Source of the DNA: Methanobacteriota archaeon
GTDB lineage: Archaea; JAADCQ01; Methanopyri; Methanopyrales; Methanopyraceae
DNA length: 64,000 bases
Direction: 5' to 3'
Assembly (NCBI GenBank): GCA_027064425.1
Contig: JAMOPO010000015.1
Span: 124,001-188,000, forward strand
Shown: positions 3,825 to 6,079 of the stretch, one piece after another
Position numbering within the stretch: position 1 is the stretch's first letter
How the letters are laid out: every line of letters begins with the position of its first letter
Program-made: the position numbers and the translations under genes
Notes under the pieces: generated by a model
What the model was told of the DNA's origin: nothing
Databases searched by the model: none
What the model saw: only the letters and a program-made list of their open reading frames with translations

Positions 3825-3857
3825 CCCTGCCCGAGACCGCCGGGCGGGGTGCGCGCG

Positions 3858-4493
3858 TTGGAGGCGGTCGTGCGCATCCTAGTCGACAACCGGGTCGGGA
3901 TGGTTCGGGACCCGTACCTCGGCCGGCACGGGCTGGCGGTGGTCGTGGAGGTGCCCTCGGAGGACCTGCGGGTACTCTTCGACACGGGCCCGTCGAAGGA
4001 CGTGCTCGAGAACAACCTCCGGGTGGCGGGCCTGGGGAGGGGGTTCGACGCCGTCGTGATCTCGCACGAGCATTGGGATCACACGGGCGGCCTGGGGGCG
4101 GTGGAGGCGGAGCGAGTGGTGAAACCGGGCGGGGACGAGGTGGACCTGCTCGACGGTGCGATCGTGGCGACGAGGACGTTCGAGGGGGAGTACGAGGGCG
4201 AGCCGATGCCTGAGCGGTCGCTTATCGTCGGCGACTTGGCCCTGATCGGGTGCTGCCACTTCCGGCTGGAGGAGCTGCTGGAGGAGTACGAGCCCAGGAT
4301 GGTGCTGGGCGGCCTCCACCTGATGGGCCGACCGAGGAGGGAGCTGGATCGGGTGGTGGAGGCGCTGCTGGATCACGGGGTCCGGCGGGTATTCCCGTGC
4401 CACTGCACGGGGATCCCGGAGTCCTCCTACCTGGCGAACCGGGTGGGTGGGGAGCCGGGGTACGTGCCCATGGAGCTGCGGGTGGAGCTGTGA
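3858..4493 (+). CDS. MBL-fold hydrolase, dihydropterin-ribofuranosylaminobenzene phosphate synthase-like
   Basis: This 211-residue metallo-beta-lactamase-fold protein has LFDTGP, the metal motif SHEHWDHTGG, a late GGLHL motif and PCHCTG near the C-terminus. That combination belongs to the family often annotated as 7,8-dihydropterin-6-methyl-4-(ribofuranosyl)aminobenzene phosphate synthase, linked to methanopterin biosynthesis in methanogens. The exact reaction here is not proven. A TTG start at 3858 lies 6 nt after GGGGTG; the in-frame GTG at 3849 overlaps that ribosome site, so I prefer 3858. It follows cfbB by about 30 bases on the same strand. Confidence 0.75.
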   Translation: MEAVVRILVDNRVGMVRDPYLGRHGLAVVVEVPSEDLRVLFDTGPSKDVLENNLRVAGLGRGFDAVVISHEHWDHTGGLGAVEAERVVKPGGDEVDLLDGAIVATRTFEGEYEGEPMPERSLIVGDLALIGCCHFRLEELLEEYEPRMVLGGLHLMGRPRRELDRVVEALLDHGVRRVFPCHCTGIPESSYLANRVGGEPGYVPMELRVEL

Positions 4494-4555
4494 CGGTCCC
4501 CTAAGGGACGCCTCCCCATCGGGAGTCGGGCCCCGCCCAGTCCGGTCATCCCGCC

Positions 4556-4606: not shown

Positions 4607-4675
4607 CGGCGGAAGCAGGGGGTGCGGGCGCGAGGCGGTTCGAGACGCGCCGGATGATTCGAGCTCGCGGGATTG

Positions 4676-4738
4676 TCAGCCGCCGCGGTACGTGCCCGAT
4701 CATCCGGCGCTCCCGTCACGAGCGGCAGGCCTCATCAT
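4676..4738 (-). ncRNA. box C/D guide RNA B, predicted target 16S rRNA
   Basis: Minus strand: C box ATGATGA (4732-4738), exactly 12 nt, D-prime GTGA (4716-4719), degenerate C-prime ATGATCG (4697-4703), guide, then a perfect D box CTGA (4676-4679). The plus strand at 4677-4690 reads CAGCCGCCGCGGTA, identical to the universal small-subunit rRNA 519-532 segment, so the guide beside box D is antisense to it. By the fifth-nucleotide rule the 2'-O-methylated residue would be C526 (E. coli numbering). The K-turn boxes would bind L7Ae, encoded at 23518. Confidence 0.75.
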
Positions 4739-4768
4739 CACGTCCCGACCCGAGTCCGGCCCGTCCGG

Positions 4769-6079
4769 CTAGCTCACCTCGATCCGGGCGATGAAGAAGC
4801 CGTCGGTCTGATGCAGGTGGGGCCAGGTGCGCCGGGCCTCGGGCATCCGGATGCCCGGGGAGGCCCAGTCTAGGGGCGGCTTGCGCAGTTCCGCGTCCGG
4901 GTACCTACGGAGCAGCCGCTCGATCAGGCGCTCGTTCTCGGTCAGGGTGATCGAGCACGTGGAGTAGACGATCCGACCGCCGGGCTTGACGAGCTTCATC
5001 GCGGTCTTGAGCAGGTCCCACTGCAGGTGGGACCACTTGGTCGGCTGCCCGGTCGTGTCGATGTCCCACCGCTTCTCGGGCTTGGAGTACACGGAGCCGG
5101 TGCCCGTGCACGGCGGGTCCACGAGGACGAGGTCCGCGAAGTGCTCGCCGAACTGCTCGGGCGCGTCCCGGGCGTCCATTCGGTAGGTCTCCACGATGTC
5201 GTCAGTGTGGAACTGCTTGACGCGCTTCTGCAGCGTCTTGAACCGCTTCGGGTGCATATCGATGGCGATGATCTCGCCCTCGCCCTCCATGAGCTGCGCC
5301 ATGTGCGTGGTCTTGCCGCCCGGGGCCGCGCACAGGTCGACCACGGTCATCCCCGGCTCCGGCTCGGCCGCGTGGGCCACGGCCGCCGACGCCTTCGTCT
5401 GCGGGAAGACCATGCCCTCCTCGAACTCCGGGGTCCGGATCACCGGGGTGTCCGCGGACACGATGCGGAGGACGTCCGGCAGGTCCTCGTCCTCCTCCGC
5501 CTCGATGCCGTGCCGCTCGAGCCGCTCGATGGCCTCGTCGGTGTCCGCGACGAGGGTGTTCACGCGGACGTAGCGCTCGGGGGTGCCGTTGCAGGCCTCC
5601 AGGAAGCGGCGCAGCTCGGCGAGGTTGCGGAAGGCGGGTCGAACGAGCTCCACGTACCACTTCGGGAAGTTGTGCTCGGCGGCCAGCCGGGCCAGCGGGT
5701 CGGTGATCCGCCGGATCACCATGTCCGGATCCACGTCCTCAACCTGCCGGAGGATCGCGTTGGCGAAGTCCGCGTCCTTGCGTCCCAGCCGGTCCTTGAC
5801 GATGTCGACCACGACCTTGGTCACGGGGCCTGGGTGCTCGCCGCGCCAGTGGATCTCCCAGGTGCCGACGCGGAGGGCGTTGCGGAGGACGGGGTGGAGC
5901 TCCTCGACCGTCGTCCCCTTCAGCACCTCGTTGAGCACGAGGTCCACGTTGCCCAGCACGCGGAGGAGATCGTGGGCTAGCGCCTGAATGAACCGGCGCT
6001 TGGAGCCCGTGACGTCCTGGAGGACGTTGCGGAGGGCGGCCTTCAGCGAGTGCTTGTTCCGCTCCATGTCGAGGAGCAC
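4769..6079 (-). CDS. RsmB/NSUN-family RNA (cytosine-C5) methyltransferase with NusB-like N-terminus
   Basis: This 436-aa SAM-dependent methylase transfers a methyl group to C5 of cytosine in tRNA or rRNA. Residues about 8-140 form a NusB-like helical RNA-binding domain. The catalytic domain follows: motif I VVDLCAAPGGKTTHM (246-260), DPPCTGTG with Cys324, and YSTC with Cys375, the two-cysteine signature of m5C methylases. The listed start is GTG, followed by LLDMER; the internal ATG of DMER is an alternative. A second member of the family lies at 53782-55128. The exact target is unknown. Confidence 0.87.
   Translation of the reverse strand: MLLDMERNKHSLKAALRNVLQDVTGSKRRFIQALAHDLLRVLGNVDLVLNEVLKGTTVEELHPVLRNALRVGTWEIHWRGEHPGPVTKVVVDIVKDRLGRKDADFANAILRQVEDVDPDMVIRRITDPLARLAAEHNFPKWYVELVRPAFRNLAELRRFLEACNGTPERYVRVNTLVADTDEAIERLERHGIEAEEDEDLPDVLRIVSADTPVIRTPEFEEGMVFPQTKASAAVAHAAEPEPGMTVVDLCAAPGGKTTHMAQLMEGEGEIIAIDMHPKRFKTLQKRVKQFHTDDIVETYRMDARDAPEQFGEHFADLVLVDPPCTGTGSVYSKPEKRWDIDTTGQPTKWSHLQWDLLKTAMKLVKPGGRIVYSTCSITLTENERLIERLLRRYPDAELRKPPLDWASPGIRMPEARRTWPHLHQTDGFFIARIEVS

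Follow-up and report, generated by a model that had tools for sequence, protein, structure and literature searches.

The minus strand of a 64,000-nt stretch of a Methanopyrus-genus genome (G000; 1.54 Mb, 57 contigs), called the window here, carries at 4738-4676 what is very probably a Methanopyrus C/D box sRNA of the canonical archaeal double-guide type, predicted from its sequence to direct 2'-O-methylation of 16S C526 (D guide) and G501 (D' guide). A first-pass annotation had placed a minus-strand module of C box and D box here, and this was borne out by direct reading, by shuffled controls (0 of 200) and by comparison of five genomes. On the other hand, its description of a C/D guide RNA with one guide was right as to the class of RNA but incomplete: a conserved D' guide, the D'/C' boxes and the G501 target had been missed.

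Architecture and conservation of the sRNA gene

Read directly from C box to D box, the minus strand runs ATGATGA - GGCCTGCCGCTC - GTGA - CGGGAGCGCCGG - ATGATCG - GGCACG - TACCGCGGCGG - CTGA, corresponding to the C box (4732-4738), a 12-nt D' guide (4720-4731), the D' box (4716-4719), a spacer, the C' box (4697-4703), a second spacer, the D guide (4680-4690) and the D box (4676-4679). Thus, as is typical of archaeal C/D sRNAs, a C box of the form RUGAUGA lies near the 5' end and a D box CUGA near the 3' end. The C box is nested in GTGATGATGA (4741-4732), which also holds an overlapping second frame, GTGATGA (4735-4741); it is the ATGATGA frame that matches, in alignment, the only C box found in the other species, and with it the D' guide is 12 nt long. 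The internal D'/C' motif of archaeal C/D sRNAs is represented by GTGA and, for the C' box, by the conserved GATGATCG (4704-4697). Both D' (GUGA) and C' (AUGAUC) deviate from consensus. From known k-turn geometry, a D'/C' k-loop nevertheless appears feasible: tandem G-A pairs would be possible, and C6 of C' would pair with G1 of the D' GTGA, replacing the usual G6-C1.

The module was present in all five Methanopyrus genomes examined (G000-G004). The D guide TACCGCGGCGG, the D' box GTGA and the C' stretch GATGATCG were invariant across them, while the spacers differed in length and sequence. The C box and the stop codon of the neighbouring methyltransferase gene overlap in G001 and G002; in G002 (a genome that is probably strain AV19) the orthologue lies on the minus strand of contig C1 at about 1587867-1587926. 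G004 combines a D box of CGGA with an altered C box, ATGAAGA, and these changes may fall on mutually facing k-turn positions, turning U-U into A-G. In the same genome the sRNA has been relocated: instead of following the NOP2/Sun-like methyltransferase gene, it lies beside an amino-acid permease gene, on the opposite strand and convergent with it (L013, near 1515), with both guides kept and with a TATA-like TTATAG (noted without a statistical test) ~35 nt upstream of the C box. Retention of the guides despite the new neighbourhood argues for a function of the RNA itself.

For the shuffle control, a hit was defined by i) RTGATGA, ii) CTGA 20-75 nt downstream, and iii) 11 nt immediately preceding the CTGA that are perfectly complementary to Methanopyrus 16S or 23S. 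Under this definition one locus was found in the window (scored as two counts through the overlapping C-box frames) versus none in 200 dinucleotide shuffles; with the complement relaxed to 9 nt, the mean was 0.06 per shuffled window. A chance resemblance, in which intergenic DNA rich in GC happens to contain boxes and a stretch resembling 16S but no RNA gene, would be in keeping with the high GC and with a single-strand fold energy no better than that of shuffles, a highly folded state not being expected of C/D RNAs. However, the shuffle result and the persistence of the module in five genomes, in one of them at another location, render this explanation exceedingly improbable. Rfam models at gathering threshold identified only tRNAs in the whole window; among the C/D families (sR1, snoPyro_CD and others) the best score was 16.8 bits against a cut-off of 45, so that the sRNA falls in no specific described family, and all sub-threshold matches of the locus were to C/D families.

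Guides and predicted targets in 16S rRNA

Together with the CTG of box D, the D guide is perfectly complementary over 14 nt to 16S CAGCCGCCGCGGTA, in agreement with the earlier claim of a guide antisense to the 530-loop region whose match runs into box D. Of these 14 nt, only 11 are outside the box, and the three pairs inside it are probably not used. No 16S or 23S gene was found in the window's own 99%-complete assembly, probably through an assembly gap, and rRNA of its relatives was used instead: CCAGCCGCCGCGGTAA was found in all four Methanopyrus 16S genes recovered (G001-G004), and pairing of the D guide to 522-532 (E. coli numbering, as below unless stated) was perfect in each. By the N+5 rule the predicted target is C526, and the G-C526 pair is Watson-Crick with the guides of all five species. 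Support for this residue, which the first-pass annotation had derived by the same rule, comes from the conservation of boxes and guide in five genomes, the conserved target, the shuffle control and the genes of fibrillarin and Nop5, two core proteins of the methylation RNP, which lie side by side on contig C29 of the same genome. In G002 and G003 the D guide site was not the lowest in energy once loose, non-N+5 pairings were admitted.

A 14-nt identity to the antisense strand of 16S would also be seen if the locus were a 16S remnant or copy, or an antisense element derived from 16S. Yet in each species the complementarity goes no further than the edge of the guide, and neither the C nor the D' part shows any relation to this region of 16S. 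Moreover, D guide plus CTGA was searched for as an exact string in 297 genomes (the genus and other archaea, G000-G004 included). Most matches in genomes other than Methanopyrus either belonged to the 16S antisense strand, in groups with TCAG in their 16S, or stood isolated and lacked C/D boxes. Descent from 16S is thus almost certainly not the explanation.

The D' guide occurs in three variants among the five species, each of which forms 10 contiguous pairs with 16S AGCGGCGGGC, including one G-U at a differing position. This target is 470-479 in G002 16S; counting back without gaps from G521 gives 498-507 in E. coli numbering. The N+5 rule predicts G501, the C-G501 pair being Watson-Crick with the guides of all five species. 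Both guides match the usual form, in which a stretch of ~10-12 nt immediately preceding D or D' is complementary to rRNA or tRNA: 11 nt, perfect, for D and 10 pairs with one G-U for D'. Against 30 tRNAs of G002 the D' guide had no better site, with at most nine contiguous pairs.

The sRNA might instead be a single-guide one, with only the D guide (C526) functional and the D' half a targetless structural relic. The off-consensus D'/C' boxes are compatible with this, as is the finding that ~22% of column-shuffled D' guide sets had an equal site anywhere in 16S and 23S and their flanks, so that the site alone is not rare. Several lines of evidence, however, speak for a second functional guide: i) the D' guide and the GTGA/GATGATCG boxes are kept in five genomes; ii) each D' guide substitution preserves pairing at 498-507; iii) this site was the lowest-energy duplex site in 16S and 23S for the D' guide in five of five species; and iv) it lies ~20 nt from the D target, and only 77 of 20,000 column-shuffled sets shared an equally good site at most 60 nt away from that target. 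We consider a single functional guide unlikely and keep to the double-guide reading.

In 16S, residues 505-507 are the 5' strand of the helix 18 (h18) pseudoknot, paired with 524-526, with C526 as the partner of G505. With the D guide on 522-532 and the D' guide on 498-507, both strands of this pseudoknot would therefore be covered by the two guides of one sRNA. The Rfam alignment of 16S assigns the adjoining residues 499-504 to the basal stem of h18, on its 5' side.

Genomic setting and a second C/D-like RNA

The sRNA lies in a gap between two genes whose 3' ends face each other, at 3849-4493 (plus strand) and 4769-6079 (minus strand); judged from their translations, the former is probably MBL-fold-like and the latter a putative NOP2/Sun-like rRNA methyltransferase. 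The sRNA is downstream of the methyltransferase gene and on the same strand. The earlier statement that the module sits between convergent genes in a gap with no other explanation was correct for the genes, but the gap holds more than this module: another conserved C/D-like RNA was found at ~4610-4554, also on the minus strand.

This second RNA could be aligned in four genomes, and at the DNA level G002 and G003 matched it strongly. Its guides fit 16S 1140-1149 (window, G002 and G003) and 1162-1171 (window and G003) in G002/AV19 16S numbering, two target sites near each other as for the sRNA at 4738-4676, and its Rfam matches were weak, sub-threshold and to C/D families only. Because its boxes are less canonical and it fits poorly in G001, we treat it only as a lead for a further C/D sRNA.

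Two other elements were observed in this region. An inverted repeat, gcgccggatgat / atcatccggcgc (4648-4659 and 4700-4711), flanks the D guide and falls partly within a ~50-nt stretch between the two sRNAs that is missing from the other Methanopyrus genomes. Right after the MBL-fold gene, at 4494-4530 on the plus strand, lies a conserved hairpin-like stretch, GGTCCC-CTAA-GGGACGCC, possibly a terminator or 3' end signal of that gene.

Relation to known guides and proposed role at helix 18

C/D box sRNAs are abundant in M. kandleri: RNA-seq of strain AV19 identified 126, most of them circular (Su et al. 2013, PMC3695527), with a reported length range of 55-97 nt, and a later study gives 127 (Dennis et al. 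2015, PMC4644070). The sRNA described here shares genus, box architecture, length class and rRNA targeting with the AV19 set, while the window comes from a different Methanopyrus genome. G002 carries an orthologue, which has probably been catalogued already, given that C/D sRNAs are a familiar class and that helix 18 is well established as a hotspot of methylation. For helix 18, 23 predictions at 13 positions are spread over five of the seven species compared, with none in M. maripaludis or N. equitans (PMC4644070); therefore M. kandleri has some. On the other hand, the modifications of the P. abyssi 30S subunit include no listed 2'-O-methyl in h18 (PMC7005279), and h18 modification is therefore not universal in archaea. 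A search of the literature yielded nothing relevant on either the exact guide string or RiboMeth-seq in archaea, and no Methanopyrus modification map was found.

Similar arrangements have been described elsewhere. Ignicoccus hospitalis sR206 has a D target at 16S 505 and a D' target at G482 (Dennis numbering; Table 3 of PMC4644070). Converted via G507 = E. coli G530, these become about 528 and 505, on the same two h18 strands as in Methanopyrus, but the methylated nucleotides differ (528/505 versus 526/501), sR206 has an alternative D site at G36, and no homology between the two is shown. The crenarchaeal group sR114/sR21/sR28/sR115 likewise carries two guides on one sRNA, both directed at helix 18, but with other guides and other positions (16S A512 and G491, that is, E. 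coli A535 and G515). In human 18S, Gm601 lies in h18 (PMC10164566). Our conversion with the offset G626 = G530 places it at E. coli G505, which pairs with C526 in the pseudoknot; it is thus the other partner of the pair, and in a eukaryote.

In the mechanism that we propose, L7Ae, Nop5 and fibrillarin would assemble on the C/D and D'/C' k-turns of the transcribed sRNA. The D guide would hold the pseudoknot strand 524-526 together with the 530 loop and direct 2'-O-methylation of C526, while the D' guide would hold the 5' strand of helix 18 together with the pseudoknot strand 505-507 and direct 2'-O-methylation of G501. While both guides are bound, folding of the h18 pseudoknot would be delayed and ordered during assembly, and the methyls left behind would stiffen the pseudoknot at about 100 C. 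Transcription, RNP assembly, both methylations and the chaperone effect are all steps that we infer. That a genus-specific sRNA clamps both pseudoknot strands at once, acting as a decoding-centre assembly chaperone at about 100 C in addition to methylating C526 and G501, is a tentative proposal, and one we hold with less than even confidence.

A variant, in which the sRNA would bind h18 to chaperone its assembly while one or both sites stay largely or wholly unmethylated, draws on the coverage of opposing strands of one structure and on the proposal that paired targeting aids folding (PMC4644070). We judge it quite improbable: boxes C and D are of canonical form, and the Watson-Crick pair at N+5 that methylation requires is present in every species. 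Under the reading with two methylating guides, the sRNA provides a testable pair of predicted ribose methylations (C526 and G501) next to the decoding residue G530. Furthermore, a single guide RNA that would lie over both pseudoknot strands is relevant to the idea, already proposed, that C/D sRNAs of archaea may double as rRNA folding chaperones.
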